This document shows positions 5,809 to 64,000 of a stretch of 64,000 bases of DNA, in pieces. A program made the translations under genes and the position numbers. The stretch lies in the NCBI GenBank assembly GCA_902596775.1, contig CACJVE010000009.1, positions 1 through 64,000 of the forward strand. Direction: 5' to 3'. The notes beneath the pieces were generated by a model. That model was not told where the DNA came from. It ran no database searches and saw nothing but the letters and a program-made list of their open reading frames with translations. This DNA comes from an uncultured SAR92 cluster bacterium. GTDB lineage: Bacteria > Pseudomonadota > Gammaproteobacteria > Pseudomonadales > Porticoccaceae. Every line of letters begins with the position of its first letter. Position 1 is the first letter of the stretch.

Positions 5809-5931
5809 TACACATCCAGTGCCCCATAGATATTGAAATCCAGGCGGTTCTGTAACACGTGGCATGGTCCGAAATCAGTTTTGAATAGGATTCGTGCTAA
5901 AAAAAATACAAGATTAAGAAGGGTATTTACA

Positions 5932-6621: not shown

Positions 6622-6647
6622 GTTTTAAGCTTCATTTAAAACTTCGG

Positions 6648-6672
6648 AAAAAGCCAGCTATGCTGGCTTTTT
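6648..6672 (+). terminator. Rho-independent terminator after proteorhodopsin
   Basis: Perfect 11-bp stem AAAAAGCCAGC / GCTGGCTTTTT with a TAT loop, followed by CTTTC. The stem is GC-rich at its top and flanked by an A-tract and a U-tract, so it could act in both directions. It should end most proteorhodopsin transcripts and separate them from the crt operon. Confidence 0.9.
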
Positions 6673-6730
6673 CTTTCTGAGGCTTCCAAAAAATTTAATC
6701 AAGAAAATTAATACAAATAGAAGGACAAAT

Positions 6731-7696: not shown

Positions 7697-7703
7697 AGTT
7701 AAA

Positions 7704-37477: not shown

Positions 37478-37523
37478 AATCAGTTGCCAAAATAGCTCAA
37501 TTTAATTGATTTTTATGGTCGAA

Positions 37524-39215: not shown

Positions 39216-39240
39216 GAGCTCACTATACTATATGGAAAAA

Positions 39241-39264
39241 AAAGGGAGCCATTCGGCTCCCTTT
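39241..39264 (-). terminator. Rho-independent terminator of the TonB receptor gene
   Basis: Stem AAAGGGAGCC / GGCTCCCTTT with an ATTC loop. On the minus strand it lies 17 nt after the stop of the receptor and is followed by a run of T residues (complement of 39233-39240). It separates the receptor from the GGT-family genes. Confidence 0.9.
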
Positions 39265-39281
39265 ATAAAAAGAGAACAGAA

Positions 39282-42230
39282 TTACATATCCACTTTTAAA
39301 CTAACGTAATAATTTCGCCCATAGTCCTGATGTGCATCTGCATAGAAGCCGTAAAAACGGTCAGCGATTGGAGCTCGCTCGTCTTCTAAGTTCTTCACTG
39401 CAAACCTTAATCGGGCATCTGAGCCACCAATATCAAATCTATAATCAACAGAAGCATCCATGGTAGTCATTGATGGGATTACATACTCCGTGCCGTCAGC
39501 TAACGTCAAACTGCTCTGTATGAATGAACCCTTCTTTAAGCCTGACAAAGACGCTCCCCATGGTCCTTTTCTCCAAGATAATCTCATGGAGTGCTTTTCA
39601 TCATAATTTCCATCAATGCCAAGCAAGTCTCCAAAACCACCTAAATTAACATACAACGGAACAAGTCCCGATTGTTGAGCATCATTGATTACGCCGAAAG
39701 CGCCAGTTGGAATCTGATCGAAGGTATCTGTATAAGATGCATTATATCTGAATCTAAAGCTACCTATGTCGGTATCAAGATCATATAACACACCTAGATC
39801 TTGCCCTTCTAAGGTTCTCTTAGCCATGTTGATATACTCATCTAAAACTCTTGTTGTTTCTCCAACCGGACAAATACCAGCTGCTGCAAAAAGCTCAAGG
39901 TCATCAGGATCCACATCGTCCCTTACTGTGGCTGGGTTACCAACAAATGAAGCGCAATCGTCAGTTCCGTGCTCTAGCAAAAGAACAAGATCTTGGATTG
40001 TATGATTTGACCTACCAAATAATCCTATGGTCTTATCTTTCTCTATTCTCCAAAAGTCATAAGTTAGTGTAAGACCATCTAAAATCTCAGCCATCGGAGA
40101 TGAGCCATCCAAAAACATGGCGGGATCTAATACAAGTCCTATTGATGAATTCGTAGACTCCTCTGGAACTAACTTATCCGCTCCAGTAGCATATCTTTGA
40201 ATTGACCAATCATAATCCCTAACATCCTTATCACTGCCGCCAATGTATTGATACACAGCATCTACACGTGTACCCGCTCTCGCTACTTCTAGCTGGTTTA
40301 CCTGCACTAAGTTCGGAGCTCTAAATGCTGTTTGAGTTGATCCTCTAAGTAAGAGCCCCTCCGCAACGTTATAACCGACTGCTAATTTACCTACAGTTGC
40401 TGTTCCTGCATCTGAAATATCTTCATGCCGGACCGCAAGCTGGGCCTGAATTTTTTCAGTAATAGGGATTTGAAATTCAGTAAAAACAGAAATTGTATTT
40501 TTACTTCCAGATGCATCTGTTGTTGGACTAGAACCTAAAACATCACCAACAAACGGGAAAGTTCCTCCGTTGTCTGCAACAAAGGCGATAGTGCCGTCAA
40601 GACGCGGATCTCTATCATCTGCATAAGACTCCTTCCGATACTCAAAACCTACCAACATAGCGACTGGACCAGCGGGCAGTGAGAGTAATTCTTCATCTAT
40701 TGCTTTGAAGTCCCAAAGACTTAACACACTCTCATCATTCCTATATACATCAACGAGGGCCCTTTCAATATTTGTAGAATCTATTGAAAAAATGTTAAAC
40801 GCCGCAGGGGTTGAATCATAAAGCGCCTCTTGAAGAAGAGTATTAGAGATTCTATTCAAAGTTACATCATTAGATACCGCTTTCGAGTGCAAGATAGCAG
40901 TTTCCCAATCCCATTCTCCTTGTGTTCCCCTGAAGCCCGCTAAGAATCGAGTTGTTTTTTTCTCATTTACTACAGTTCGTCCATACTTAGGATTTCTCAT
41001 TCCATCGACAGTTATTTTCATATCCGCCAATGGAAACTCCCCATCTTGCATCAATTGCTGCGTGTAATAGTACTCTGGACCTATCGATAACCTGGCTGAA
41101 GAAAAAATACCGCCTGGTTCCTTCTCTCGTTTTGACTTGGCATTGTAATATCCAAGCTCCGAGAAAAATTCCACACCACTTTCCATCTCATGAGTAAACG
41201 TTGCAAATACATTCTGACGCTCCGTAGTACCCCTAAAATCTCTATACAAGCCAGGATTTAAGTAGTAGTTTGAAGAGGACGAGGTATCAGGCACTAGGCA
41301 GGTTCCATAACCAGTATCTAGGGCTGTAGATCCCGCACATTTGGGGTCATCTATTGGCAGTATTTGCGCCTCTCCCCTGGAATCCGTGAAACTATTTCTA
41401 CCAGACTGATCAATTTGTGCGTATTGGTATGAATACATGTTACGAAAAGCAGTGTTAGTTTTCCAAGGAGAATCATCTGGCAACAGTTCTCTATGGTCAC
41501 CAATACTCCATCTGTCATCTTCTGTTGCTTTTATTCGATCCCTGTCATAATAGTCAACAAGTACTGTCAAATGCGAAGCATCATCATTAAATTTCATCCC
41601 GAACTTACTTGTAAATGTAAGATCCTCTGCCTCAAAGTGGTCATATCCCTTTAATCTAGTGCTAAAGCTAAATCCTTCATATTCAGCATCTATTACATTA
41701 TTTACAACGCCTGCTAATGCGTCTGCTCCATAAATTGCTGAGGCACCGTCCTTTAATATCTCAACACGATCGAGCCCAGTAGTTGGAATTAAGTTGGAGT
41801 TTACGGTGAGTGTTGGAACATAATCACCACCTATCAACTCGGTCTGATAACCCGCTGAGTTTACAAGCCTTCTGCCGTTCAACAAGACAAGAGTATTGCC
41901 GACTCCCATATTTCGAAGATTGTAAGCTCCAATATCGCCACGAGCAGCATTGACTCCTCCTGACATCGCTTCCTGTTCTGTGAAGTAATTTAAACCCTGT
42001 TCCGCCATGTTCTCGAGTAATTCAACTCCAGAATCCAGTCCTAAGATATCGATATCGTCCGATGAAATAACTGAAACCGGAAGTGCTGTGCTAATTGAGG
42101 CCCCCTTAATCTGCGAACCCAGTACCACTACTTCTTCAAGCTGCGCATCCCCTTGCGCGAGTGCAAATGAACTAATCAAAGAAAATCCCGCTATCAATGC
42201 CAATCCAAATATGTTTTTAAACAAACCCAT
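39282..42230 (-). CDS. TonB-dependent receptor (substrate unknown)
   Basis: A 982-residue outer-membrane receptor. Signal peptide to FALAQ (residue 26), then a TonB box LEEVVVLGS. The plug contains ALPVSVISSDDI, GAYNLRNMGVGNTLVLLNGRR, and VEILKDGASAIYGADALAGVVNNV. A 22-strand barrel follows, ending in an aromatic-rich strand and VSLKVDM. The plug type resembles oligomer/peptide-linked receptors of marine Gammaproteobacteria rather than siderophore receptors. It is downstream of a dicarboxylate transporter and lyase on the same strand, and upstream of GGT, oligopeptidase and MFS genes, suggesting uptake of a peptide- or amide-linked substrate. Confidence 0.93.
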   Translation of the reverse strand: MGLFKNIFGLALIAGFSLISSFALAQGDAQLEEVVVLGSQIKGASISTALPVSVISSDDIDILGLDSGVELLENMAEQGLNYFTEQEAMSGGVNAARGDIGAYNLRNMGVGNTLVLLNGRRLVNSAGYQTELIGGDYVPTLTVNSNLIPTTGLDRVEILKDGASAIYGADALAGVVNNVIDAEYEGFSFSTRLKGYDHFEAEDLTFTSKFGMKFNDDASHLTVLVDYYDRDRIKATEDDRWSIGDHRELLPDDSPWKTNTAFRNMYSYQYAQIDQSGRNSFTDSRGEAQILPIDDPKCAGSTALDTGYGTCLVPDTSSSSNYYLNPGLYRDFRGTTERQNVFATFTHEMESGVEFFSELGYYNAKSKREKEPGGIFSSARLSIGPEYYYTQQLMQDGEFPLADMKITVDGMRNPKYGRTVVNEKKTTRFLAGFRGTQGEWDWETAILHSKAVSNDVTLNRISNTLLQEALYDSTPAAFNIFSIDSTNIERALVDVYRNDESVLSLWDFKAIDEELLSLPAGPVAMLVGFEYRKESYADDRDPRLDGTIAFVADNGGTFPFVGDVLGSSPTTDASGSKNTISVFTEFQIPITEKIQAQLAVRHEDISDAGTATVGKLAVGYNVAEGLLLRGSTQTAFRAPNLVQVNQLEVARAGTRVDAVYQYIGGSDKDVRDYDWSIQRYATGADKLVPEESTNSSIGLVLDPAMFLDGSSPMAEILDGLTLTYDFWRIEKDKTIGLFGRSNHTIQDLVLLLEHGTDDCASFVGNPATVRDDVDPDDLELFAAAGICPVGETTRVLDEYINMAKRTLEGQDLGVLYDLDTDIGSFRFRYNASYTDTFDQIPTGAFGVINDAQQSGLVPLYVNLGGFGDLLGIDGNYDEKHSMRLSWRKGPWGASLSGLKKGSFIQSSLTLADGTEYVIPSMTTMDASVDYRFDIGGSDARLRFAVKNLEDERAPIADRFYGFYADAHQDYGRNYYVSLKVDM

Positions 42231-42320: not shown

Positions 42321-43808
42321 CTAAGTTAAAAAGATTAAAGGTGCTAACCAATATGAGATAACTATTAAAAGCCCTAAACCCAGAATATTTAGGTAAAGGC
42401 CCGCGCGAATCATTTGAGGAATCGTGATAAATCCTGATGAAAAAACTACCGCATTGGGTGGAGTCGCTACAGGTAACATAAAAGCGCAACTAGCTGCCAA
42501 TGTAACAGGAACACATAAAACAACTGGTGAGATTCCAATCTGGAGTGCGAGTGCACCAAGAATCGGCAAGAAGGTTGCTGTTGTTGCGAGATTACTCGTC
42601 ATCTCAGTCAAAAAAATAACCAGGGCAGTTGCGCAAAATACGACAAATCCTACTCCCATAAACGATAAAGGAGACAAACTTTGTCCCAGCCAACTCGCCA
42701 ACCCACTATTAGAGATGGCCGACGCTAGACTCAAACCACCGCCAAATAAAATCAGAACACCCCAGGGTAATCCCTTCAAATCATCCCAAACAAGCAATTT
42801 AGACTGTCCTCTCTCACCACTTGGCAATATAAAAAGAAGAAGGGCTCCAGTTAATGCGATAGAGGCATCGGATAAGCCTGAGAGATCGAGTGCGGCTGTC
42901 AATGGCCTTCGGACTACCCAAAATAATATTACTAGCGCAAAAGTCAACGCTACCCTTTTTTCTGGGGTCGTTAGCTTTCCGAGTGCAACACTCTCACTCA
43001 ATAAGTGTTGCCTAACCTCCGCAGACTCTTGAATGTCTGATGGATATACAACAATCGTAAGAACGCTCCACGCTAAAATTAACATTATCGATGCAAGTGG
43101 AACTCCAACCATCATCCAATCAAAAAAACTAATAGAAATATCAAAAGTCTCTCTCATATATGCAGCAAACAGGGCGTTAGGAGGCGTTCCAATTAATGTT
43201 GACATTCCTCCTATCGTTGCAGCGAAAGCTAGTCCCAATAACATTGATATCTGAAAATTTTGTTGACTTATGTCTGATAAATTTTGCATCTGAATTAAAA
43301 TCACAGAAATCACAGATAAAGCGATCGGCAGAAGCATCATAGTAGTTGATGTATTAGTCATCCACATAGACAGGAGTGCAGCGACCAACATAAATCCACC
43401 GATTAGTCTTCTTCCATCAGTTCCCGTTTTGCTAAGGATAAAAAAGGCTATTCGCTTATGTAAATTCCATCTCTGAACCGCAATCGCTAAAATAAAGGCA
43501 CCTAAAAATAAATATATAGTCGGATTTGCATAAGGCGCAGCTGCCTCCTTCATTGAAGATATCTCTAAAATATCAAAAGTTACCAAAGGAACAAGTGCCG
43601 TAACTGCGACAGGCAGAGCTTCTGTTGCCCACCAAATAGCCATCAAGAGACCCACTGCGGCGACTCTCCAAGCAATGATAGACATAACATCCTGATGATC
43701 ACTAAAAAGCATCATAAGAATAAAAATGATTGGCCCAAAAAGAAGACCAATATTTTGGTATAACCTGCGGTCTAAAGAATCTGGATCAACAACCGTTTCA
43801 GAATCCAT
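42321..43808 (-). CDS. DASS/SLC13-family sodium:dicarboxylate symporter
   Basis: A 495-residue membrane transporter. The two substrate-binding Ser-Asn-Thr-type motifs of the DASS family appear as MWMTNTSTTMMLLP in the first repeat and EMTSNLATTATFLP in the second. The amino-terminal WWATEALPVAVTALVPL is also typical. Members import succinate, fumarate, malate or sulfate with Na+. It lies 35 nt after the exported lyase gene and 90 nt before the TonB receptor, so the three may act in one uptake route. Confidence 0.93.
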   Translation of the reverse strand: MDSETVVDPDSLDRRLYQNIGLLFGPIIFILMMLFSDHQDVMSIIAWRVAAVGLLMAIWWATEALPVAVTALVPLVTFDILEISSMKEAAAPYANPTIYLFLGAFILAIAVQRWNLHKRIAFFILSKTGTDGRRLIGGFMLVAALLSMWMTNTSTTMMLLPIALSVISVILIQMQNLSDISQQNFQISMLLGLAFAATIGGMSTLIGTPPNALFAAYMRETFDISISFFDWMMVGVPLASIMLILAWSVLTIVVYPSDIQESAEVRQHLLSESVALGKLTTPEKRVALTFALVILFWVVRRPLTAALDLSGLSDASIALTGALLLFILPSGERGQSKLLVWDDLKGLPWGVLILFGGGLSLASAISNSGLASWLGQSLSPLSFMGVGFVVFCATALVIFLTEMTSNLATTATFLPILGALALQIGISPVVLCVPVTLAASCAFMLPVATPPNAVVFSSGFITIPQMIRAGLYLNILGLGLLIVISYWLAPLIFLT

Positions 43809-46298: not shown

Positions 46299-46919
46299 TC
46301 ACTTCACCTTAGCTATGCCCCAATAGTTATAACCTGCAAACTTTGGAGTGGATGGAATATACATTTGATCAAGCTTATCAAAGACAAAGCCACCATCAGA
46401 AATAAGTTTGGGTATATTTCTATTAAGATTACAACCGCCCATGCATTTTTTCCAAATTGGATTTAATCTATCCTGCCACTTTTTTATATTTTTGTCCGGC
46501 GCAACTCCATGTTCACAAAAAATCAACTTTCCATCTTCTTTGAGCACTCTTTTAAACTCGTTAATCGCTTTTGCAATGTTAGGTATTGTGCACATTGTGT
46601 AAGTTACTAATACTGTGTCGACTGAACCATGAGGAATTGGTATCTCCTCCCCGTCAGCCTGCATAAACTCCATTGCAATATCATTTTTTTCTTTAACCTT
46701 AGAGGCTATTTTCCAATTTTCAGAATAAGGATCTAATCCAATTAATTTCCCCACATTACTATTTTTGTAGAAGGGGATGTTAAGGCCTGTTCCGACGCCA
46801 ATTTCAAGGGTAACACCAGACACTTTCGGCACCACTTTTTCTCTTTGACGTGTTATTGGTTTTGAACCACATGCACAGTGCAAAATGCGAGGCAATACAT
46901 GCTTCTCATAAATATTCAT
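46299..46919 (-). CDS. SAM-dependent methyltransferase (class I)
   Basis: A 206-residue methyltransferase. Motif I is LEIGVGTGLNIPFY, followed by LIGLDPYSEN, QADGEEIPIPHGSVDTVLVTYTMCTIP, and FCEHGVAPDK. The last part resembles the thiol or lipid methyltransferase METTL7/UbiE-like group. It contains a CGSKP and CMGGCNLNR cysteine cluster. It is adjacent (3 nt) to the esterase and 26 nt after DUF2237. Confidence 0.88.
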   Translation of the reverse strand: MNIYEKHVLPRILHCACGSKPITRQREKVVPKVSGVTLEIGVGTGLNIPFYKNSNVGKLIGLDPYSENWKIASKVKEKNDIAMEFMQADGEEIPIPHGSVDTVLVTYTMCTIPNIAKAINEFKRVLKEDGKLIFCEHGVAPDKNIKKWQDRLNPIWKKCMGGCNLNRNIPKLISDGGFVFDKLDQMYIPSTPKFAGYNYWGIAKVK

Positions 46920-46945
46920 TATGATTACTTTGTAATGTTGCTTGT

Positions 46946-47314
46946 TTAATGAACATCAATTGCATAGGGCAATAGTATATCTAGAGGAACTAAATCTAAT
47001 GCAAGAATATTTGTGCTTTTTAAGTAAACTTTGGGTGCGCACCCAAAATTATGAGCCTCTAACCATCGATTAGCGCACAAACACCAAGATTGACCATCTA
47101 ACAATCCTGGAAACTGAAATTCCGGAACTGGGGTAGACAAATCATTTCCTTTCGATTTAGAAAATTTCAAAAATTTATCAGTCACATGTGCACATATCGT
47201 GTGGGAACCACGATCATATGAATTAGTATTGCAAAATCCATCTCTGAAAAATCCCGTTACTGGATTTCCACAGCACAACTCAAGTTCCTCGCCAAAAACG
47301 TTTTGTTGATTCAT
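46946..47314 (-). CDS. DUF2237 family protein
   Basis: A 122-residue protein fully covered by DUF2237: LCCGNPVTGFFRDGFCNT, GSHTICAHVTDKFLKFSKSKGNDLSTP, FPGLLDGQSWCLCANRW and APKVYLKSTN. Seven cysteines in total. DUF2237 proteins are small, soluble and of unknown function. It lies between the second halogenase and the methyltransferase. Confidence 0.92.
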   Translation of the reverse strand: MNQQNVFGEELELCCGNPVTGFFRDGFCNTNSYDRGSHTICAHVTDKFLKFSKSKGNDLSTPVPEFQFPGLLDGQSWCLCANRWLEAHNFGCAPKVYLKSTNILALDLVPLDILLPYAIDVH

Positions 47315-47359: not shown

Positions 47360-48847
47360 TTAAGTGGCTGGACAATACTTACTCAAAAAAAGTTCATGGC
47401 TAGGTAGTTGCTTTACTGATTGATCAACCATTTTTTTCAGACTTGACAAAAAATTCTCCAATTCAGAATCACTCATCATATTGACTATCGGATGATATTG
47501 GTTGGGCATCAATCCCTGCCCTAACATAACTTGAGTCCAACTGTTCTCCGCAAAAACATCTCCTTCTCCATGAAAGACTCGTCCAGCCTCAACAAACAAA
47601 TCCAATTTGTGTTGCAAGGTGCTGGGTATTTCCATCGATCTACAATCGCGCCAAAATTTTGAATCATCTCGTTGCGACACATGATAATGCATAATAATGA
47701 AGTCACGAATATACTCATACTCGTCACTCATTTGCTTGTTAAACTCATCCCTATCAGAGTCGGTAACTCCTTGGAATGGAAACATCTGCATTAATCGAAT
47801 GATAGCTCTCTGGATCAAATGGATACTAGTCGATTCAAGGGGTTCAAGAAATCCGGCAGATAAACCTACAGCAACACAATTTTTATTCCAATGCTGAGTT
47901 CGTTGTCCCGTCTTGAATTTGATAAAATTCGGAGTTGATAGAACTTCCCCATCAATGTTACTCATCAAGGTTTCTAGTGCAACTTCATCGCTCATGTATC
48001 TGCTACTAAAGACTAATCCATTCCCCACACGACTTTGCAAAGGAATTCTCCACTGCCACCCAGATTCGTGAGCGATTGATCGAGTATATGGAACTGGAGC
48101 TTGCGTATTCTTTGTCTGAATTGCAATTGCACGGTCACACGGCAACCAATGTGACCAATCCTGGTACTCCGTTTTAAGAGCCTTATCGATGAGTAATCCA
48201 GAAAATCCTGAGCAATCGACAAAAAAATCACCGACTATTGTTTTGCCTGACTCAATAACCACGCTAGCAATATTGCCACTTGCATCTTGATTAACTGTTT
48301 TAATTCGACCTTCTTGTCTGACAACATGATTTTTTTCGGCCAATTTCCTTAGATACTTGGCATATAAACCAGCATTTAAGTGATAAGCATAATTAAGTTT
48401 GTTCTGCTTTAAAAAGCCAAACTTTTCAGCCTTTGCAGCTGATAGCTCTGCAGAGTAACAACCATAATCATCACTATAACCACATTCCTTACCTTTCAAC
48501 CAAAAGTGATGAAATCCTGCTGCCCAACACGACTTACCTGTGTGTCCAAATGCATGAATGTAGTTTTCATTTAGTTTGTGCCAATTTTCAAAAGAAATAC
48601 CAAGCTTGATAGTTCCTTGAACTTCTGACAGAAACTCCGCCTCATCGATTTTTAATAGTTGATGCAATGCAAAGAAAGTGGGAATAGTAGCTTCACCTAC
48701 TCCCACCGTGCCTATCTCATCCGACTCTACTAAAGTGATTTCAAAATCTTTTCCAATAAGGCTCGAAATTGAGGCAGCTGTCATCCAACCGGCAGTCCCT
48801 CCTCCGACGATAACAATCTTTTTTAAAGTATCTTTTTCCACTTGCAT
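47360..48847 (-). CDS. Flavin-dependent tryptophan halogenase-like protein, copy B
   Basis: A 495-residue member of the tryptophan halogenase family. FAD motif GGGTAGW (residues 15-21), GVGEATIP, the catalytic lysine K81 in TIKLGISFENW, the WxWxI halogenase motif W264-W266-I268 (GWQWRIP), and EPLES with Glu338-Ser339. All residues needed for hypohalous acid chemistry are present. The true substrate is unlikely to be free tryptophan; homologues in Caulobacterales-type TonB clusters act on unknown substrates, and one (BrvH) brominates indole in vitro. Fourth gene after SapC and the cupin protein. Confidence 0.92.
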   Translation of the reverse strand: MQVEKDTLKKIVIVGGGTAGWMTAASISSLIGKDFEITLVESDEIGTVGVGEATIPTFFALHQLLKIDEAEFLSEVQGTIKLGISFENWHKLNENYIHAFGHTGKSCWAAGFHHFWLKGKECGYSDDYGCYSAELSAAKAEKFGFLKQNKLNYAYHLNAGLYAKYLRKLAEKNHVVRQEGRIKTVNQDASGNIASVVIESGKTIVGDFFVDCSGFSGLLIDKALKTEYQDWSHWLPCDRAIAIQTKNTQAPVPYTRSIAHESGWQWRIPLQSRVGNGLVFSSRYMSDEVALETLMSNIDGEVLSTPNFIKFKTGQRTQHWNKNCVAVGLSAGFLEPLESTSIHLIQRAIIRLMQMFPFQGVTDSDRDEFNKQMSDEYEYIRDFIIMHYHVSQRDDSKFWRDCRSMEIPSTLQHKLDLFVEAGRVFHGEGDVFAENSWTQVMLGQGLMPNQYHPIVNMMSDSELENFLSSLKKMVDQSVKQLPSHELFLSKYCPAT

Positions 48848-48858
48848 ATCAAATTTAC

Positions 48859-49857
48859 TTATCTAAATTTATCTGACAGGACATTTTTAATTTTATCCGC
48901 AATGTTTTCATCCATTGGATTTAAGGCACCTCTTGCATTCTCTGGAATATGACTTATGTTTTCCTCTTTCTGATTAAAAACATAGTAATCGAACAGACTT
49001 TTCCAAATACCCCTTTGCTCATCTGGGAGATCTCTCAATCCCATAATCGCATGCTGCAATACATTTAGTGGTGAGCCCATGAAGTTAGGTGTTGTTCTCC
49101 ACCAATAATTCACTAAAACATTTAAATCATTTCTTGCCTCAACATGATGCCACCACATACTAGGAATCAATACAGCATCACCAACATCAAGATCCGCCAC
49201 GATCGCGTCACTCTCTGCATTTCTATATTTTGGGAATTTCTCATAATCTGGATTTAAAAGATCTACTAAACTAATCGGCTGGCCGGCCGGTGAGAAATCT
49301 ATCGGTCCAACGTATAAATTATCAAGGTGCTCTGGTGAAAAAAAAGTAAAACGCCTCTTACCTGCTACTGAGCAGGCAATATTTGTAGGAAAATCATAGT
49401 GAGGCGCAACACGACTTCTATTGCCAATCCAGAGAGAGGCAATTGGTTGATGTTTACCCAAGGTGATATCGTTTTCCTCACGAAACCCAGGCAACCAGTT
49501 GTCTATGTTCGTGGAGCCAACATAAATCATGGGAGGCTCCTCGAGTTTGCTACATTCTGTTAACTTTTGGAATATCTCTTCCAAACTTACTCTTCGGTAG
49601 TCAAAATTAAAGCCGGATAAGTCTTCGTTATAAAAAATTCTACCTTTGATACTTGGATCTCCGGTCATTGCCGTCAATGGTTTTTTCGCATCAAAATTTC
49701 TTAAATAAGATATAACAGCACTATCTGATTTTTTAGCCTCTTTCACCAATGGCCAGTCATGTACAAAATTCTTCAGCAACAAGGGCTCATTGGAATAAAG
49801 AATTTCCTCCGAGAGGTGATTTGATTGACAGTTTTCTATAACTCTTATTGCTTTCAT
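48859..49857 (-). CDS. Cupin_8/JmjC-like Fe(II) oxygenase
   Basis: A 332-residue cupin-like protein. The metal site HxD is in VAPHYDFPTN and the distal histidine in MWWHHVEA. The amino-terminal EPLLLKNFVHDWPLV and the GKRRFTFFSPEHLDNLYVGP segment are typical of Cupin_8 proteins encoded beside tryptophan-halogenase-like genes and SapC. Likely a 2-oxoglutarate-dependent hydroxylase, possibly modifying a protein or peptide. It starts 6 nt after the SapC gene. Confidence 0.92.
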   Translation of the reverse strand: MKAIRVIENCQSNHLSEEILYSNEPLLLKNFVHDWPLVKEAKKSDSAVISYLRNFDAKKPLTAMTGDPSIKGRIFYNEDLSGFNFDYRRVSLEEIFQKLTECSKLEEPPMIYVGSTNIDNWLPGFREENDITLGKHQPIASLWIGNRSRVAPHYDFPTNIACSVAGKRRFTFFSPEHLDNLYVGPIDFSPAGQPISLVDLLNPDYEKFPKYRNAESDAIVADLDVGDAVLIPSMWWHHVEARNDLNVLVNYWWRTTPNFMGSPLNVLQHAIMGLRDLPDEQRGIWKSLFDYYVFNQKEENISHIPENARGALNPMDENIADKIKNVLSDKFR

Positions 49858-49863
49858 TATCGA

Positions 49864-50589
49864 CTACCCAACCCGTTTATCCTTTTTATCAACAAGACTT
49901 CTCATACGTGCATGAGATGCAACTGCCATATAAATTGGCAGTAGGTATCCCTTTTTCTGCAATGACGCAAGTTGATCTTTGTTCAAATTATTTAGTGTTG
50001 TCTCTTTAATAGTATAGAATCCTGAAAGCGCATGCTTGGAACCATCAGAAAGCGTTACCTCAAGAGTGAATAACTCCAACAAATCTAACTCTAAAATTTC
50101 ACTGATAAAGTCGCTATTGCTTTGATTTCCAAGATGGATAGACTTTAGAATTTTCATGATCTGCTTGGTGTATGTGCTTGGTTGTCCGTCATCTTTAAAA
50201 AGAAGTTCTCCCTCAATTTCATTAACGCGAGGATTTCCCATATCTATTGAAATAACAGGCTTTTTGTCATCACTTTTGTCACCGCTAGACTGCATTGCGA
50301 TAAGAAATGGATGTCTTCTAGACATGAGCGGGATATATGTCGCATCCCACATATCCTGATCATCTAGAAACAAATTTTGACCTTCCTCTAAACCAAACAA
50401 GGCAATGGGGTAAAAACTTCCAGTTTCAGGATCTTTTTTGAAATAAATTGGATAACAGGACTGTACATCCCTAAACTCGTGCGGAAATGTCATGACATGC
50501 ATGACATCATCACCAAGACTCTTGGATCGTTTGGTGATCACTTTGAGAGCCCCATGATCTCGATAATTTAAGACGACATAGTTATTCAT
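49864..50589 (-). CDS. SapC family protein
   Basis: A 241-residue SapC-domain protein. YPIYFKKDPETGSFYPIALFGLEEGQNLFL and YIPLMSRRHPFLIA are characteristic. SapC was named in a surface-array secretion locus of Campylobacter, but the same domain recurs in TonB receptor-halogenase-cupin clusters of proteobacteria, where its role is unknown. It is 24 nt after halogenase A and 6 nt before the cupin gene. Confidence 0.92.
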   Translation of the reverse strand: MNNYVVLNYRDHGALKVITKRSKSLGDDVMHVMTFPHEFRDVQSCYPIYFKKDPETGSFYPIALFGLEEGQNLFLDDQDMWDATYIPLMSRRHPFLIAMQSSGDKSDDKKPVISIDMGNPRVNEIEGELLFKDDGQPSTYTKQIMKILKSIHLGNQSNSDFISEILELDLLELFTLEVTLSDGSKHALSGFYTIKETTLNNLNKDQLASLQKKGYLLPIYMAVASHARMRSLVDKKDKRVG

Positions 50590-50613
50590 TTTTATCTAAC
50601 TACAAGCCGTTTA

Positions 50614-52179
50614 TTATATTTTTTGTAAGCCATATTGATGTACTTTAGCAATAAAATCTCTGTTTGTGGGCATAGAACTAACCAGCTGCTTTGTCCGCAT
50701 GGCGTTCTCATCAAAAAGATCAAGAGCAACCGCGCTTGTTTCTTGATTAGATAGCCTGAAATTACCCGGATTTGTTTTGAAACCCATGCCATAGAGAATA
50801 TATTGATAGCTAGCAGATGGAAACATCTCATCAATATGCAATGTATCCTTGTGATAGGGACCCTGCCATTTCCATAGATCCATTTTTTCCTGAAGGCTTG
50901 CAGGAATGCTCTCGCGGCTTACATTATCTCTCCAGTATTCTGAATTATCCCTTTCTGTCAAAATATAATGAAGCTTTAAAAACTCAATTATTGTGTCCCA
51001 ACGGTACAAAAATTTTTCATTGAACCTTTTTGAAACGATATCCATTATTTTTCTGTTTTGAGGCAGTTGCTCTGCAATCATGTTTGCAGAGAGCTCAACA
51101 AGAACTAACGCGGATGCCTCCAAGGGCTCGACAAATCCTGCTGCCATGCCAATGGCAACACAATTTTTATGCCAAAACTTCTCACGGTGTCCTGGAGAAA
51201 ATTCTATTTTTCTAGTACTTACTTGCTCAGCGACCTCCTCCCCTACTAAATTCTTTATATGATGTCGTAACTCTGTTTCAGCTAAGGTAGCATCAGTGTA
51301 TGAACTTGAGAAAACATGTCCAATACCTCTCCGTGAGGGTAGTCCGATATCCCATATCCAACCGCTTGACTGAGCTGTAGACAAAGTACTAGATGCTATT
51401 GGATCATCATCACTAGAATAGGGTACTTGCGAGGCAATTGCGCTATCGTTGAAGAGATACTTTTGTTTCGAAGAAAAAGGAATCCCGTAATGCTTACCTA
51501 ACAGAAGACTTCTCGATCCACTGCAATCGATAAATAAATCACCCTGGATAATTTCACCAGAATCAAGTTGCAAAGATTTTAAGTCGCCATTTTCATGAGA
51601 ATTTATATTAATAACCTCAGCTCGTTTATGAATAACGCCTAAAATCTCAGTACAGTGCGTGTTAAGCTTTTCTGCAAATTTACCTGCATCTAGGTGGTAT
51701 CCATAATTTAAATTAAACGAATATTCAGGCGTAGTTATATTTTTGGGGGCCTGATTTCTCAGCATTAGTGTGTTCTGAGAGCAGACCGCCTCCGCAAATG
51801 GAATGTGAGAAGATGATTCCTGCCACTCATTTACAAGATTATGCTCTGCATACCCATATGGCACTGTAAAAGGATGGGTATAAACATCAGATCCATTCTT
51901 CCATCCAGCAAATAAAGTTCCTTGCTTTAAACTTACGTCACAGTCTTTGATAAATGCTGTCTCTGAAATACCAATTTTTTTTAAAGTTGTTCGCATTGAG
52001 GGCCAGGTGCCCTCGCCAACTCCAATGCTACTTATGTTAGGTGATTCAATTAATGTCACATTAATAAAATGAACATCGTGCTTGGGATTATTATGTTCAG
52101 CCGCAATTATACCAGCCGCCAACCAACCGGCAGATCCGCCTCCTATAATTACTATGTCTTTTATTGCTTTGTCATTCAT
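50614..52179 (-). CDS. Flavin-dependent tryptophan halogenase-like protein, copy A
   Basis: A 521-residue paralogue of copy B. FAD motif GGGSAGW (13-19), GVGEGTWPSM, catalytic Lys85 in SLKQGTLFAGW, and the WxWxI motif W274-W276-I278. The EPLEAS segment keeps Glu354, but Ala355 replaces the Ser that follows it in copy B. The two copies are divergent, not a recent duplication. It is the first gene after the TonB receptor and its terminator, so it may be expressed by readthrough or from a promoter in 52180-52250. Confidence 0.92.
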   Translation of the reverse strand: MNDKAIKDIVIIGGGSAGWLAAGIIAAEHNNPKHDVHFINVTLIESPNISSIGVGEGTWPSMRTTLKKIGISETAFIKDCDVSLKQGTLFAGWKNGSDVYTHPFTVPYGYAEHNLVNEWQESSSHIPFAEAVCSQNTLMLRNQAPKNITTPEYSFNLNYGYHLDAGKFAEKLNTHCTEILGVIHKRAEVININSHENGDLKSLQLDSGEIIQGDLFIDCSGSRSLLLGKHYGIPFSSKQKYLFNDSAIASQVPYSSDDDPIASSTLSTAQSSGWIWDIGLPSRRGIGHVFSSSYTDATLAETELRHHIKNLVGEEVAEQVSTRKIEFSPGHREKFWHKNCVAIGMAAGFVEPLEASALVLVELSANMIAEQLPQNRKIMDIVSKRFNEKFLYRWDTIIEFLKLHYILTERDNSEYWRDNVSRESIPASLQEKMDLWKWQGPYHKDTLHIDEMFPSASYQYILYGMGFKTNPGNFRLSNQETSAVALDLFDENAMRTKQLVSSMPTNRDFIAKVHQYGLQKI

Positions 52180-52250
52180 TAAAGATTAAACCCAAAACTA
52201 AAATTGCATCATATGTCCAAATAAAAATAATATTCTTTTACGTCCCCATG

Positions 52251-52280
52251 AAAAAAGCCGCTTAATATAAGCGGCTTTTT
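52251..52280 (-). terminator. Strong hairpin terminator between TonB receptor and halogenase A
   Basis: Stem AAAAAGCCGCTTA / TAAGCGGCTTTTT with an ATA loop, A-tract on one side and T-tract on the other, so it can act on both strands. It is 20 nt after the receptor stop (minus strand) and 71 nt before the halogenase start, and so could limit expression of the halogenase genes relative to the receptor. Confidence 0.9.
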
Positions 52281-52300
52281 CTTTAGCTTAAATTACCAAG

Positions 52301-55270
52301 TTAAAACAACTTATATCTCAATGCTAAGTCATATCGAGCTCCACCTTGCACTGCTTGCAAGACTTGGTCCTCTGACAAACCATAAACATGAACGGTTTCA
52401 TCGGTAATATTTAGTCCCGAAGCATATAAAGTCATTCGATCGTTCACTTCGTATGTGACACCAATATCCCACTGACCATAAGCCTTAACATTAGTTGGGT
52501 TAGTATAAGTACCTTGACCCTGACCTACACCAGCCAAGAAATCATCTCGCCAGTTGTATGCTAATCTAACCGATAACCCATCCTTATCGTAGATACCAAC
52601 AAAGTTTGCAGAATCGCTCAATCCATTCAGAACAAACTGGCCCTCCAAGGAATTCATGGGGTCATAAGATAGGTCTGAATCTGCAAAAGTTGCGTTCGCT
52701 ATGAACCCGTAGCCAGAATCTCCAAAGAAGTGCTGGAGATTTACCTCAATGCCATCGGCATGAGCTTCTCGCTCATTAACTGGACGCGTTAAAGTCCACA
52801 CTAAGTCTGGATCACCTGGCGCGCCAGAAATCGTATCGCCATCAACATATGGACTGTCTTGATAATTATCTAAAATATATTGTCCAACCGTAGTGTAGTT
52901 ATTTGGATCTAAACCACCCTCTGCAATGGCCTGATCCCACAAGGCACCACCAACAATGTTTGGTATGTTAAACAACGTATCCTCTTCAATCCCTGAGCCG
53001 ATAAATTTATCAACACTCTTATCGAATATACCCACAGAAAGATAGCTTTCCTCGCCGTAATACCACTCCACGGAGATATCAATATTTTCAGCATGAATAG
53101 GTTCTAATCCCGGATTTCCAGCTGACGCGTTTGCATTCACACCAGGATAATATTGCGTACTGCTCGCAGTAAGTCCTCCCTTTATGTCCTCGTAACTCGG
53201 ACGAGTAATTGTCTCGCTATATGATGCTCTAAGGATTAGATCGTCACTAAGCTCAAAATCGACATCTAGACTTGGTAATACAAAATCATAATTACCATAG
53301 AAATCTTCGAATGTTTGAGCAGTCTGACCATTTTCAACAGCTTCTGTAATATATAATTCATTTCCAGCTTGGGACCAACGCGATCCATCATATTTGATAC
53401 TCAAAGCAGCTGAAGTAATATCAGTCTCCTCGTATCTAACACCTAAATGAAGGTTCATCGGCATTCCACTTAACTCGGTACTTAAGTTGTACCGAAGGAA
53501 AGCAGACTGTGACTCTTCAAGTGTTCTAATATCGTTTGGCCAAACCGTAGAAGGACAATAACCCGTCCCGCAATCTCCTACTGCCTCGTAGTCAGCTCCA
53601 CTTGCCTCATACGACGCCTCTCCTGCAGCTATAAGATCTGCTAAGGACGCGGTGAAATACTCTGTCTGAAGGTCCGGATGATCACTGCCTGATAATTGAT
53701 CAAACTGGCCTGCAATACTTGATCTTATGACGATATCTGCTAGATCACCAGGATTTGTGCTTCCTCCCCAGTTGTTAAGCTGGATGAAATTTGACACCGA
53801 ACGGTTATCGACATCAGACATCTGAACACCAAAATCAATACTTGCATTATCAGCAAAATCCCAAGTACCACTCATTGTTGCTTGTTCGACATTCATCTCG
53901 GATGCATCATTTCTGAACACACTCCCCGTAATGATCATGTCATTTTTATACATCGGCCTATTTTCTTCTCCGCCAGAATTTAAGTTCAAGACCATGATGG
54001 GCATTTCTGACCCAGTGATAATTGTCTGTCCAACTTTATTGAACGACGCCATCGTTATTAGAGCATCTGTTCCATTGGGCCCATTTGCACCGGTCTCGGC
54101 AGATGAATCATGCCAATCGAGTTTCAAAGACAATTCGTCGTTAACTTGAATATCAAAATTTAACCCTAACGACGTATTTTTATTTAACCTACCGTCTTCT
54201 CCCGTTCCCATAGCAAAGTCTGCGTTGTCAACAACTTCACTATAATAGATTGGACTAGAGATCGGCCCATCAGACCACTGACTTGATTGAGAGACCGCTG
54301 CAGTATTGGAAAACCATGCAGATAAATCACTATACGAGCGCTCTAATTCAAATTCAGACCTTATGTAATCCAATGTTACAGAAGTATTATCTGACGGTGC
54401 CATTTGAAGCACCAGCTGCCCGTTTGTTCTTTTACTTCTGTATTCTGCGATGTTGTAAGCCATCGATTGTGGCAAAGAATAATTTGATCCGGCTGTCGTT
54501 GGCCTATCTATTTGATTTTCGTCATCCGCCACTTTTGGATCGCTCGATCCATTTGGCATAATGTCATCACCAGGGCGAGTGTACCATCCATTAACCACCG
54601 CTCCATTCACACCATTGTTTCTCTCTTGATGACTGGCGATTACCGCTATACCAATAGTATCGTCCGCAAACTTGTCCATGTATATTCCTGAGGCCTCAGG
54701 AGTATATTCATCGCCAACCCTTGTAGACGTGTCGTTAACGCTTTTTATTCCAAAGCTCATTGTTGTATCAGCATCTAGGGGTTTTGGGGTAGAGATATTT
54801 ATGGTTGAGCCGATACCACCACTTGGTACGTCTGCACGTCCAGTCTTATATACCTGAACACCTGCTATTCCCTCTGACGCTAAGTCACCGAAATCAAAAG
54901 ATCTTGAAGCACCATTGTGTGTTGGCATTTGTCTGCCATTTAATGTTACAAGATTATACTCAGGGCCAAATCCTCGCACAGTAACTTGACTTCCCTCTCC
55001 CCTTTGTCGAGATATAGAGACACCAGTTATTCTCTGAAGTGATTCGGCAAGGTTCGCATCTGGAAACTTTCCAATATCCTCCGCAGAAATTGCATCTACA
55101 ACTCCCATAGAATCACGTTTTATATCCATAGAACGTTTCAGACTGCCTTTGATGCCGCCTGTAACGATAATTTCTTCAATTTCTGCACTATTTTGTGCCA
55201 TTGCGGGTTGATATGCTCCAACCATTGCTAATGCCACGCTTGACGAAAGTAGACGCTTTCTAAATACCAT
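52301..55270 (-). CDS. TonB-dependent receptor, Xanthomonas/Caulobacter type
   Basis: A 989-residue outer-membrane receptor. Signal peptide ending AMAQN (residue 26), TonB box IEEIIVTGG, then RDSMGVVDAISAEDIGKFPDANLAESLQRITGVSISR, diagnostic of the large Caulobacter-type receptor subfamily. The plug includes VTVRGFGPEYNLVTLNGRQMP and GGIGSTINISTPKPL, and the barrel ends LALRYKLF. This subfamily takes up oligosaccharides or other nutrient oligomers and is often next to halogenase, SapC and cupin genes, as here. A palindromic site at 55322-55334 lies just upstream. Confidence 0.95.
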   Translation of the reverse strand: MVFRKRLLSSSVALAMVGAYQPAMAQNSAEIEEIIVTGGIKGSLKRSMDIKRDSMGVVDAISAEDIGKFPDANLAESLQRITGVSISRQRGEGSQVTVRGFGPEYNLVTLNGRQMPTHNGASRSFDFGDLASEGIAGVQVYKTGRADVPSGGIGSTINISTPKPLDADTTMSFGIKSVNDTSTRVGDEYTPEASGIYMDKFADDTIGIAVIASHQERNNGVNGAVVNGWYTRPGDDIMPNGSSDPKVADDENQIDRPTTAGSNYSLPQSMAYNIAEYRSKRTNGQLVLQMAPSDNTSVTLDYIRSEFELERSYSDLSAWFSNTAAVSQSSQWSDGPISSPIYYSEVVDNADFAMGTGEDGRLNKNTSLGLNFDIQVNDELSLKLDWHDSSAETGANGPNGTDALITMASFNKVGQTIITGSEMPIMVLNLNSGGEENRPMYKNDMIITGSVFRNDASEMNVEQATMSGTWDFADNASIDFGVQMSDVDNRSVSNFIQLNNWGGSTNPGDLADIVIRSSIAGQFDQLSGSDHPDLQTEYFTASLADLIAAGEASYEASGADYEAVGDCGTGYCPSTVWPNDIRTLEESQSAFLRYNLSTELSGMPMNLHLGVRYEETDITSAALSIKYDGSRWSQAGNELYITEAVENGQTAQTFEDFYGNYDFVLPSLDVDFELSDDLILRASYSETITRPSYEDIKGGLTASSTQYYPGVNANASAGNPGLEPIHAENIDISVEWYYGEESYLSVGIFDKSVDKFIGSGIEEDTLFNIPNIVGGALWDQAIAEGGLDPNNYTTVGQYILDNYQDSPYVDGDTISGAPGDPDLVWTLTRPVNEREAHADGIEVNLQHFFGDSGYGFIANATFADSDLSYDPMNSLEGQFVLNGLSDSANFVGIYDKDGLSVRLAYNWRDDFLAGVGQGQGTYTNPTNVKAYGQWDIGVTYEVNDRMTLYASGLNITDETVHVYGLSEDQVLQAVQGGARYDLALRYKLF

Positions 55271-62243: not shown

Positions 62244-64000
62244 CTAAATTCTAGTAAACCTCAACCAATTGATATTCCATGATGGTCCCAACGCATTTAT
62301 TCTAAGAACCTGTTGTCCGGCATCCAAGGTCAGTGTCGAACTCTCGGTAACCCAATTTTGCCAACCTCCCGTGCTTGGAACTGTCTGTGTATCTAACTTT
62401 TCATTATCAACCAAAACCTCAAAACCAGTACTACCATTCAAACTTGCGAGCCTATACTCCACAAAATAGTCACCAGAATCACCTACATCTATTAAGTACT
62501 CAATCCAATCTCCTGATTCAATGTAACCCACGTTTGAACCGCCTCCATTGTCAGTAGTATTTTCAATTTGAATTCCAAACATGTCGCTATAGTCCTCAGC
62601 TTGGACTAATCCTGGGATACTATTGATTACTATTTCACCGCCGGTTGAGGAACCACTTTCATCCAAATCATCACCGAGTGTATCCTGATCGCTGTAGGTC
62701 AGACCGAAACCATATGCGAACAAAGGTTCGTAGTCATTGTCAAAACGGTTCAAGCTAAACTGTGTTGGTGTGTTCGGCCATGAGAATGATAAGCGCCCAT
62801 CAAAATCGAAATTTGTTGATCCTTCATTATTTTGGAAAATTACATCAGCAACTCCAATACCCTCAGATCCAGGCAACCATGCAGCTATAAAAGCATCAGA
62901 TGCATTAATTTCAGCGTTAACCCATAACGGCCTTCCTGACAAAAATATTGAGACAACAGGGATATCTTGATCTTGCAAAGATCGTAAAAGATTTAAATCA
63001 GACTTGGAACCCGCTTGATATTCAAGTGTGGAGATATCACCTGCTCCCTCCGCATAAGGTGATTCACCAAAAACAACAATCGCTATATCTGGTTTTGCAC
63101 CTGAGTAACTACCATCCACACTCAATCTTGACGTACCTCCTCCTTCAGCGACGGCTTGAGATATTCCATCATAAATTGAGGTGCCGCCTGGAAAGTCAGC
63201 ATTCGAGTTGCCAGTACCCTGCCAAGTCACCGTCCATCCGCCGCTCTGTTGTCCAATATCATTGGCTCCACCTCCCGCGATAAGAACACTTTGGCCTCTT
63301 TCTAACGGGAGGATTGAGTTTTTATTTTTTAATAATACTATAGACTTTCGCACTGCCTCTCTTGCCACTGCTCGATGCTCTTGAGAGCCTAAAACATTCA
63401 AGCTCTCAGCGTATTCCCTATCTGAAGGACGAACTGAATCTAATAGGCCTGATCTGGCCTTGACCCTAAGAATTCTGGTGACTGCGTCATTAATTCGAGA
63501 CATTTCAATCTGGCCACTCCCAACTTGATTTATCGTATTTTCTATAAATGCTCTCCAAGAATTTGGCACCATGATCATATCAACGCCAGCGTTTATAGCC
63601 TGAGCACACTGATCATCGCTACATCCTGAAACTTGACCATGCCCATTCCAATCTCCGATTACAAACCCATCAAAACCCATCTGTTCTTTTAGAACATCGG
63701 TTAAGAGGTAATTATTCCCATGAACTTTATCGCCATTCCAACTATTGTAAGTCGCCATTATGGTTTGAACTCCAGCACGAAGGGCAGCAATATATCCCTG
63801 TCCATGAATATCTCTTAACTCTGACTCGGAAACCTCTGTGTCACCCTGATCAACTCCATCGGTTGTTCCACCATCACCAATGAAATGTTTTGCTGTTGCC
63901 ACCACTTTACTAGCTGAGAAAAGCGAGCTGGTCTCACTTTCACCCTGCAATCCCTTCACCATTGCGGTCATATATTCACTGACAATTTGCGGATCTTCAG
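62244..64000 (-). CDS. GH3 beta-glucosidase with carboxyl-terminal CBM6 (partial, 5' end outside window)
   Basis: At least 585 residues; the frame is open through 64000, so the amino terminus is missing. The GH3 part has KHFIGDGGT, GVQTIMATYNSW, the nucleophile Asp in FVIGDWNGHG, KSIVLLKN, and a probable acid/base region GESPYAEGAGD, as in ExoP/Cel3-type exo-beta-glucanases. After a Ser/Gly/Asp linker, the last ~130 residues form a CBM6 (VQAEDYSDMFG, GYIESGDWIEYLID, INWLRFTRI). It should release glucose from beta-1,3/1,4-glucans such as laminarin, with the CBM holding the polymer. Confidence 0.92.
   Translation of the reverse strand, partial: EDPQIVSEYMTAMVKGLQGESETSSLFSASKVVATAKHFIGDGGTTDGVDQGDTEVSESELRDIHGQGYIAALRAGVQTIMATYNSWNGDKVHGNNYLLTDVLKEQMGFDGFVIGDWNGHGQVSGCSDDQCAQAINAGVDMIMVPNSWRAFIENTINQVGSGQIEMSRINDAVTRILRVKARSGLLDSVRPSDREYAESLNVLGSQEHRAVAREAVRKSIVLLKNKNSILPLERGQSVLIAGGGANDIGQQSGGWTVTWQGTGNSNADFPGGTSIYDGISQAVAEGGGTSRLSVDGSYSGAKPDIAIVVFGESPYAEGAGDISTLEYQAGSKSDLNLLRSLQDQDIPVVSIFLSGRPLWVNAEINASDAFIAAWLPGSEGIGVADVIFQNNEGSTNFDFDGRLSFSWPNTPTQFSLNRFDNDYEPLFAYGFGLTYSDQDTLGDDLDESGSSTGGEIVINSIPGLVQAEDYSDMFGIQIENTTDNGGGSNVGYIESGDWIEYLIDVGDSGDYFVEYRLASLNGSTGFEVLVDNEKLDTQTVPSTGGWQNWVTESSTLTLDAGQQVLRINALGPSWNINWLRFTRI

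Follow-up and report, generated by a model that had tools for sequence, protein, structure and literature searches.

Halogenases of the BrvH and Xcc4156 group have reportedly been studied for years, as isolated biocatalysts, with their native substrates and those of their relatives unknown. In vitro, indole derivatives are converted by BrvH and by three halogenases of Xanthomonas, and the low activity made the BrvH authors doubt that indole is the native substrate; the native substrates are described as unknown in the available parts of both papers (PMC5945002, PMC7336383). In the accessible text of PMC5945002, BrvH does not accept free tryptophan, and its open active site is likened to that of MibH, an enzyme that halogenates tryptophan only inside its peptide. 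MibH (NAI-107) provides a precedent for tryptophan halogenation at the peptide level. The PrnA-, RebH- and PyrH-type halogenases of free tryptophan carry a Trp-binding lid motif, which, according to the available part of PMC8269204, is missing from the group C halogenases. Another kind of related system is the laminarin or glycan utilisation locus with a TonB-dependent receptor (TBDR). Its receptor, GH3, GH16 or GH1 enzymes, LacI-type regulator and sugar transporter are also found near many relatives of the operon described below. Searches of the open-access literature found no paper joining halogenase, SapC and TonB, none with three of the SapC, TonB, cupin and halogenase-type terms, none with "SapC family protein", and none joining laminarin, TonB-dependent and halogenase, or tryptophan halogenase and polysaccharide utilization. 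Other papers do have halogenase alongside TonB or carbohydrate-utilization terms; in the accessible part of PMC11337851, tryptophan halogenase and TonB appear in separate places.

The locus lies in a 64,000-nucleotide stretch of DNA from an uncultured SAR92 cluster bacterium (the window). Five genes follow one another on the minus strand, from position 55270 down to 47360, in the order TBDR, halB, SapC, cupin and halA. The receptor gene (52301..55270) encodes a protein of the Caulobacter/Xanthomonas type, 989 residues long, which matches TIGR01782 with 601 bits (cut-off 310) as well as the plug and barrel families PF07715 and PF00593. It is followed by halB (50614..52179; 521 residues; PF04820, 370 bits, cut-off 21), the gene of a 241-residue SapC-family protein (49864..50589; PF07277, 231 bits, cut-off 28.9), that of a JmjC-like Cupin_8 enzyme of the 2-oxoglutarate/Fe type (48859..49857; PF13621, 234 bits, cut-off 27.4) and halA (47360..48847; 495 residues; PF04820, 622 bits, cut-off 21). 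All of these Pfam and NCBIfam scores are far above the cut-offs, and the five genes lie where the first-pass annotation had put them. Its statement that no NRPS or PKS gene is present is also supported by size: the longest open reading frame of the window is that of the receptor, and none is as large as an NRPS or PKS gene.

The two flavin enzymes are both of the halogenase type with, as far as their sequences tell, intact catalytic residues. The catalytic lysine is K81 in halA (kept in 82 of 82 homologue rows) and K85 in halB (60 of 61, the remaining row having an X), and the catalytic glutamate is E335 in halA (82 of 82) and E351 in halB (60 of 61). The FAD-binding GxGxxG is present at G15-G20 and G13-G18, respectively, and WxWxI at W264-I268 and W274-I278. 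The first-pass annotation had named both lysines and the WxWxI motif and had called the two enzymes clearly diverged, in agreement with their identity of 30%. The full WxWxIP is found in halA only; halB reads WIWDIG, and 2PYX reads alike in the halB alignment. The assembly, 1.68 Mb long and 78% complete, has no other Trp_halogenase match at E<=0.001. The best PDB matches of halA are 6y1w, which we take to be Xcc4156 (615 bits), 9luq (529 bits) and 6frl (439 bits). The best match of halB is 2PYX, a structural-genomics halogenase of a type for which we know of no function (572 bits, full length), followed by 9ltb and 9lu2. The available part of PMC7336383 identifies 6frl as BrvH and describes 2PYX as an unnamed halogenase from unpublished work. 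halA thus shares with the BrvH/Xcc4156 group the family, over nearly the full length, the catalytic lysine and WxWxIP. It also shares the absence of the C-terminal Trp-binding lid motif (Trp4, as given in the accessible part of PMC8269204), which by pattern is found in neither halA nor halB. BrvH, too, has a second halogenase gene upstream (available part of PMC5945002). The receptor-SapC-cupin context was not found in the accessible texts of PMC5945002 and PMC7336383, where "tonb" occurs 0 times.

A point that the first-pass annotation missed is the glucan context of the operon. A gene of a GH3 exo-beta-glucanase with a C-terminal CBM6 (62244..63998, cut by the window end), which had been left unconnected, is likewise on the minus strand, some 7 kb upstream of the receptor gene. 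Its best PDB match is the exo-1,3/1,4-beta-glucanase 3rrx/3usz (567 bits), and over 449 residues it shares 60% identity with the GH3 of another five-gene locus (L104). Receptor and beta-glucanase genes are thus found in one locus, as in a beta-glucan utilisation locus. A second locus of the same genome reads GH30-GH16-TBDR-SapC-cupin-GH5. GH3, GH16, GH1 or GH30 genes occur within about 10 kb of 37 of the 53 related five-gene loci versus 1 of 20 control receptor loci; the other 16 five-gene loci have none, and in one annotated plasmid cluster there is none within 9 kb. LacI-type regulators are near 30 of the 53. Such glycosidases were near 1 of 18 receptor-halogenase pairs and 0 of 16 receptor-less SapC loci. 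In flank scans covering 79 of the 120 and 79 of the 119 open reading frames gathered, mostly the longer ones, and the best 25 of 77 and best 25 of 103 families, the alpha-amylase family accounted for 10 of 79 flank proteins of the pairs among the matches listed. These observations suggest that the operon is very probably a beta-glucan receptor operon and that the ligand here is most likely a beta-glucan, such as algal laminarin. The two flavin enzymes, the hydroxylase and SapC, which have no known role in glucan breakdown, set it apart from the known glycan utilisation loci. Because beta-glucanases are found at the five-gene loci and alpha-amylases at the receptor-halogenase pairs, the ligand appears to vary and to offer no ring to halogenate.

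The operon is conserved well beyond the window. Among 81 loci (the window and the 80 loci with the highest similarity to halA, with matches of 100 bits or less left out), 54 have the five genes in the same order, in alpha-, beta- and gammaproteobacteria. Of the other 27, there are ten in which the contig extends less than 4 kb beyond halA on the upstream side, and the rest are without one or more of the genes. Some loci have a subset that lacks SapC, cupin or halB, and in the stretches read of L303, L304 and L306 a halB-like gene stands with neither receptor nor SapC. By far most halA loci share one exported gene, that of the receptor. In distance trees over 52 loci, receptor and halA distances correlate with r 0.82, among the two tightest pairs, and with a partial correlation of 0.53, though these genes lie at opposite ends of the operon; the choice of the 80 loci by halA similarity may shape these correlations. 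In 11 whole genomes, a TIGR01782 receptor lies within 8 kb of 54 of 62 halogenases (E<=1e-40), leaving eight without one, of 21 of 25 SapC genes and of 19 of 22 Cupin_8 genes (E<=1e-20). One Sphingomonas genome has 14 halogenases; the enzymes are many, and mostly each has its own receptor. As to co-occurrence across genomes, the check proposed by the first-pass annotation, the outcome is divided. SapC is found in 35 of 36 Pseudomonadota genomes with a halogenase (E<=1e-60) versus 69 of 263 without, in a survey of 299 genomes with at most five candidates scored per genome and halogenase counts that are lower bounds. In the class sample the association is not significant (2 of 5 versus 14 of 109, p 0.14).

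The receptors linked to SapC form a tight group. All but one of 71 belong to one receptor clade, which includes the window receptor and was taken as the largest clade around it with at least 85% SapC-linked members, duplicate C-terminal rows being dropped. SapC linkage requires four changes on the receptor tree versus a mean of 18.2 and a minimum of 14 in 500 shuffles. Together with the fixed gene order, this supports the earlier description of a conserved cluster accompanying Caulobacter-type receptors. The receptor-halogenase pairs, on the other hand, are scattered over the tree (14 changes versus 16.3 in shuffles), which speaks against the receptor as the substrate. The L147 receptor is labelled SapC-only since downstream genes alone were counted; its halA sits upstream. 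Three tryptophans, W319, W501 and W907, are near-invariant in the clade, and W319 is kept in one of its four partnerless members, "partnerless" meaning no partner within 2.5 kb (some such receptors have a halogenase about 9 kb off). On the AlphaFold2 model of the receptor (pLDDT 87.6, pTM 0.85; 59 of 65 alignment rows mapped, window included) they are at strand ends, and they could be ligand contacts. They are kept, with D180 and N283, in two receptors that adjoin SapC and cupin or cupin only, with no halogenase beside them (G000:C12 and G120:C11:328544). These residues need therefore not be modification sites and were rejected as proof of modification; halogenases elsewhere in the two genomes could act in trans. 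In a clade of ten halogenase-linked and six unlinked receptors there is no clean tryptophan difference (W431 in 10 of 10 versus 4 of 6).

SapC (PF07277), presumably named after a Campylobacter surface-array gene, is a widespread family for which we know of no function. Its AlphaFold-type model is confident (pLDDT 96.6, pTM 0.90; 59 of 61 listed alignment rows mapped, window included). Foldseek gave no match at E<=0.001 in the PDB or BFVD, VIA-align 2 also gave none, and no solved relative was found in the PDB by sequence. The model may represent a new fold, as judged against these two libraries. The nearest PDB match of the cupin is the protein asparaginyl hydroxylase FIH (factor inhibiting HIF), with which it has in common an HxD...H iron site and a basic 2-oxoglutarate residue; the match is weak, 65.9 bits over about 127 residues. 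The iron triad H153, D155 and H237 and R168 are kept in 73 of 73 rows, and R168 stands where FIH has its 2-oxoglutarate lysine, Lys214. C2orf60, which we take to be an RNA hydroxylase, is also among the PDB relatives. By this resemblance the cupin would be an FIH-like hydroxylase and a candidate protein hydroxylase.

MibH has a lanthipeptide as its substrate. At the halA operon no gene for a precursor peptide was recognised. The small open reading frames in receptor-to-next gaps of at least 70 bases at halA loci, compared by eye and not by statistical clustering, are non-recurrent, and the idea of a ribosomal precursor peptide was rejected. Several of them resembled translated hairpins. Others read as GH16-like (L143, L158) or DUF6445-like (L091), families that domain search also found in those same loci. 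In the window, this gap contains a terminator-like hairpin (52252..52280), an inverted repeat with a T run on either strand. Of 59 TBDR-to-next junctions, that of the window among them, 25 have such a hairpin, versus 0 of 31 other internal junctions, as judged against an approximate control, a two-base-block shuffle. The predicted hairpin implies unequal, possibly partly independent, expression of receptor and enzymes; a terminator at this position would keep the amounts of the catalytic proteins low compared with that of the receptor.

By combining these observations, it is possible to propose how the operon might work. The best explanation of the whole, with a probability of about 0.4, is an operon for beta-glucan uptake that is equipped with modification enzymes of its own. 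The receptor would import beta-glucan oligosaccharides. As an aromatic ring is absent from glucans, it is unlikely that the imported nutrient is what becomes halogenated, and of the targets listed in the first-pass annotation (an imported nutrient, a surface molecule or the receptor system) the nutrient loses ground, while the receptor or another exported protein is tentatively favoured. The enzymes would most likely modify one of these proteins before export. A protein target would fit the exported neighbours that SapC often has elsewhere, the resemblance of the cupin to FIH and the open, MibH-like site of the halA relative BrvH; that the substrate is the receptor is a tentative proposal, at somewhat less than an even chance. 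The two flavin enzymes would act in the cytoplasm, halogenating or oxygenating an aromatic residue of the unfolded receptor or co-exported protein. The FIH-like hydroxylase might work on the same unfolded polypeptide before its Sec export, and SapC might be the subunit that holds or presents it. A complete receptor-maturation system, in which the halogenases and the FIH-type hydroxylase, guided by SapC, put halogen or hydroxyl on an outer-membrane sugar receptor, is conceivable and rather doubtful. The modified aromatics would then plausibly be at the extracellular mouth (W319, W501, W907), tuning glucan binding. To our knowledge, such a receptor would be the first transport protein of bacteria shown to carry a halogen.

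SapC is also found away from receptors. There it often adjoins giant exported proteins, beside two-partner-secreted (filamentous haemagglutinin-type), RTX or TolC/HlyD-associated genes. Of 14 plasmid SapC records, six have receptor and halogenase, two lack usable annotation, and six are receptor-less: two with a filamentous haemagglutinin gene, one with a DUF4214 protein and TolC nearby, the rest unclear. On a Pseudomonas plasmid SapC has no evident exported neighbour. The enzymes might thus modify another exported or envelope protein, such as a surface glycan binder or a secreted glycosidase, with SapC as a general export helper and the receptor merely co-regulated. This is unlikely given that the receptor is the exported gene the halA loci have in common, and that its distances track those of halA so closely. 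The constancy of gene order across three proteobacterial classes, with the tight receptor clade, makes it very improbable that a common regulator responding to sugar is all that keeps the genes together and that their jobs are unrelated, as the LacI-type regulators and the incomplete operons might otherwise suggest.

The known activity of PF04820, halogenation of small molecules, and the action of BrvH and its Xanthomonas counterparts on indoles would fit an aromatic imported by the receptor, or an indole- or tryptophan-derived signal reporting uptake. Such a substrate is rather unlikely, since most of the loci are glucan loci, the BrvH authors themselves doubted indole, and as many as 14 halogenases in one genome, most of them adjoining a receptor, fit receptor-specific work better. 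Bromide should be scarce outside the sea, and the operon is also present in Massilia, Duganella, Sphingomonas and Lysobacter, genera common there. The reaction of the flavin enzymes in vivo might therefore be the oxygenation or oxidation of a residue, aromatic or not, with halide as an in-vitro substitute; the lysine and glutamate of the halogenase mechanism are, however, kept throughout, and this appears improbable.

The tie to glucan receptors indicates where the substrate of these halogenases may be sought, namely in the receptor or among its neighbours when cells grow on starch or laminarin. Since algae store much of their glucan as laminarin, the operon may touch a large carbon flux. SapC, widespread and without a solved relative, gains a testable context beside exported proteins. 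Modification of the receptor or another cell protein by these enzymes, if true, would be new.

The TonB-dependent receptor (52301-55270), halB (50614-52179), SapC (49864-50589), a Cupin_8 enzyme (48859-49857) and halA (47360-48847) follow one another on the minus strand, all recognized by profile matches. Within the enzyme block, neighboring genes are 24, 6 and 11 bases apart, and 121 bases separate the receptor from halB. The two flavin-dependent halogenase-type enzymes, halA and halB, are 30% identical. The best PDB match of halA is 6y1w (615 bits), which we take to be Xcc4156, followed by 9luq and then BrvH (6frl); that of halB is 2pyx (572 bits), followed by 9ltb and 9lu2. The PDB entry closest to the cupin is factor inhibiting HIF (FIH, 66 bits).

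The operon is real and widespread. Among 81 loci (the window and the 80 genomic loci that rank highest in similarity to halA), 54 have the receptor, halB, SapC, cupin and halA in this order: 51 exactly, including the window, two with the receptor split into two ORFs and one with an extra halB. Eight lack halB alone, and the remaining 19 vary in other ways or are incomplete. In 10 of the 27 loci without the full set, the contig extends less than 4 kb upstream of halA. By their record titles, the organisms are alpha-, beta- and gammaproteobacteria, Shewanella, Massilia and Sphingomonas species being among the carriers of the operon. K81 and E335 of halA are kept in 82 of 82 aligned rows, K85 and E351 of halB in 60 of 61 (the remaining row has an X at each), and H153, D155, R168 and H237 of the cupin in 73 of 73.

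Several other genes accompany these loci. DUF2237 and methyltransferase genes lie closely 3' of halA in the window (46299-47314, minus strand), after halA in locus L081 and upstream of the receptor in L082. A diverged second Cupin_8-like gene on the opposite strand (minus) stands just past halA in L082 (11492-12490), L083 (11511-12536) and L085 (11623-12633), the Pfam check covering L082 alone. DUF6445 genes are another recurrent neighbor (for example L149, 1168-1896), present at 9 of 53 five-gene loci. Elsewhere in the window, a bacteriorhodopsin-family gene is followed by carotenoid/retinal genes (5833-10507, plus strand), including lycopene cyclase and beta-carotene 15,15'-dioxygenase families. 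Another TonB-dependent receptor (39282-42230) shares the minus strand at 35696-42230 with two gamma-glutamyltransferase-like genes, one of them covered by the Pfam check; together with an anion symporter (42321-43808) these perhaps form a separate peptide-related uptake locus.

The neighbors that recur at halA loci are GH3, LacI regulators, GH16, sugar transporters and GH1. Of the 53 five-gene loci other than the window, 37 have a GH3, GH16, GH1 or GH30 gene within about 10 kb. Among partnerless receptors drawn at random the figure is 1 of 20 (p 4e-7), among receptor-halogenase pairs 1 of 18, and among receptor-less SapC loci 0 of 16. The sole control match, L296, has a receptor that falls inside the SapC clade. 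Sixteen of the 53 five-gene loci lack these hydrolases, and nine lack both them and LacI. In the window, a CBM6-bearing GH3 exo-beta-glucanase, truncated where the window ends (62244-63998), lies 7 kb upstream of the receptor on the same strand. Over 449 residues it shares 60% identity with the GH3 of the five-gene locus L104, and its closest PDB entry is an exo-1,3/1,4-beta-glucanase (567 bits). The assembly's other SapC locus (L040, G000:C12:42500-59112) carries GH30, GH16-CBM6/CBM35, receptor, SapC, cupin and GH5-CBM6 genes and no halogenase; its receptor, SapC and cupin are 41%, 42% and 48% identical to those of the window. Because of these hydrolases near five-gene loci, the window's GH3-CBM6 and the second SapC locus, the prediction from gene context that the receptor binds a beta-glucan is well supported.

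Other receptors have other surroundings. Around receptor-halogenase pairs, the alpha-amylase family accounts for 10 of 79 flank proteins, and cyclomaltodextrinase, GH97 and pullulanase domains are also present. The flanks of partnerless receptors contain pectate lyase, GH115, GH67 and others, and alpha-amylase was not found there among the best 25 of 103 families. Annotated plasmid loci carry GH16/GH3/GH43, agarase, galactosidase or GH3; one plasmid cluster has no glycosidase annotation within 9 kb.

Eleven whole genomes, the window's own and ten picked from halA loci, contain 91 receptors above the TIGR01782 cut-off, 62 halogenases (E<=1e-40; 14 of them in one Sphingomonas genome), 25 SapC and 22 Cupin_8 proteins (E<=1e-20). 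Of these, 54 halogenase, 21 SapC and 19 cupin genes lie no more than 8 kb from such a receptor; 11 clusters have the full set, and in 13 the receptor is followed by a halogenase alone. In a tree built from the 91 receptors, linkage to SapC requires 4 changes (mean of 500 shuffles 18.2, minimum 14) and linkage to the cupin 3 (mean 17.5), while halogenase-only pairs among receptors without SapC are scattered (14 changes against a mean of 16.3). In a larger receptor set, a single clade of 80 takes in 70 of the 71 SapC-linked receptors, which, with the gene order, bears out the first-pass annotation's view of a cluster conserved with Caulobacter-type receptors. The co-occurrence that it proposed to examine was found in 299 Pseudomonadota genomes, where SapC is present in 35 of 36 with a halogenase (E<=1e-60) and in 69 of 263 without (Fisher p 2.9e-17), but was not significant in the class sample of 114 (2 of 5 against 14 of 109, p 0.14), genomes being paired by hand between listings for these counts. 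In two genomes (L307 and L308), SapC has a diverged halogenase match (298 and 276 bits) at a distance of about 5 kb. Caulobacter vibrioides likewise encodes SapC together with a halogenase in its genome.

The same annotation had named an imported nutrient, a surface molecule and the receptor system itself as the likelier halogenation targets. Flavin halogenases act on electron-rich aromatic rings, and alpha-glucans, beta-glucans and galactans have none. The same enzyme family stands beside receptors for different sugars, mostly with one enzyme set per receptor. Since the predicted ligands lack a ring and the receptor is what these settings share, we infer that the ligand is not the enzyme substrate.

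A protein substrate is suggested by the neighbors of SapC, the FIH-like cupin, the BrvH active site, the missing tryptophan lid and the distance correlations. The cupin's nearest solved relative, in a mixed list of PDB relatives, is a protein-modifying enzyme. The published BrvH work describes an enzyme that does not accept free tryptophan and likens its open site to that of MibH, which requires tryptophan inside its peptide. BrvH-group halogenases have no tryptophan lid, and the lid is absent from both halA and halB as well. In 52 five-gene loci, receptor and halA distances correlate from opposite ends of the operon (r 0.82, partial 0.53, half-sample 5-95% range 0.42-0.63). The distances of halB and cupin also correlate (r 0.82, partial 0.59), and the adjacent receptor and halB show a partial correlation of -0.03. 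Common ancestry of the species and the selection of loci by halA may account for part of these values.

SapC itself has no PDB relative by sequence search (best E 0.46). Its very confident model (pLDDT 96.6, pTM 0.90) gave nothing at E<=0.001 with Foldseek in 350,542 PDB chains or in BFVD, and nothing at Z>=2 with VIA-align 2 among 996 chains. Receptor-less SapC often adjoins giant exported proteins, such as the filamentous haemagglutinin-type proteins on Thalassospira and Azospirillum plasmids; the remaining receptor-less plasmid loci have less telling neighbors. In the class sample, by our own count, large ORFs (1,200-3,200 aa) occur at 10 of 16 receptor-less SapC loci, and TPS/ESPR, ShlB/FhaC, RTX, HlyD or TolC-type domains at five (L034-L036, L038, L039). 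Of ten giant-ORF pieces (<=1,000 residues) from receptor-less loci, five had no Pfam match and one had sub-threshold matches only.

The clade of 80 receptors (70 SapC-linked) differs from 67 other receptors at N283 (95% against 0%), D180 (96% against 3%), W319 (95% against 4%), W907 (95% against 25%) and W501 (91% against 21%). In the AlphaFold2 model, W319 and W907 lie at strand ends and W501 starts a long loop (500-578); read from strand order, the loops at all three tryptophans would be extracellular. All five residues are present in two cupin-bearing clade members without an adjoining halogenase, and W319 in one of four partnerless members. These residues may contact the ligand, serve as modification sites, or do both.

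A terminator-like hairpin (52252-52280) occupies the receptor-halB junction. Such hairpins occur at 25 of 59 receptor-to-next junctions of 40-700 bases (mean of 20 shuffle rounds 0.1, maximum 1), at none of 31 other internal junctions and at 4 of 81 stretches past halA. This position predicts, from sequence, that the receptor would be made in excess of the enzymes, which fits catalytic partners and is no proof of substrate.

The best reading is that of a beta-glucan receptor operon, whose cytoplasmic enzymes would modify either the receptor or some other exported protein. The literature searched yielded no description of the operon as a unit; its component families are already known, and their combination and likely job appear to be new.
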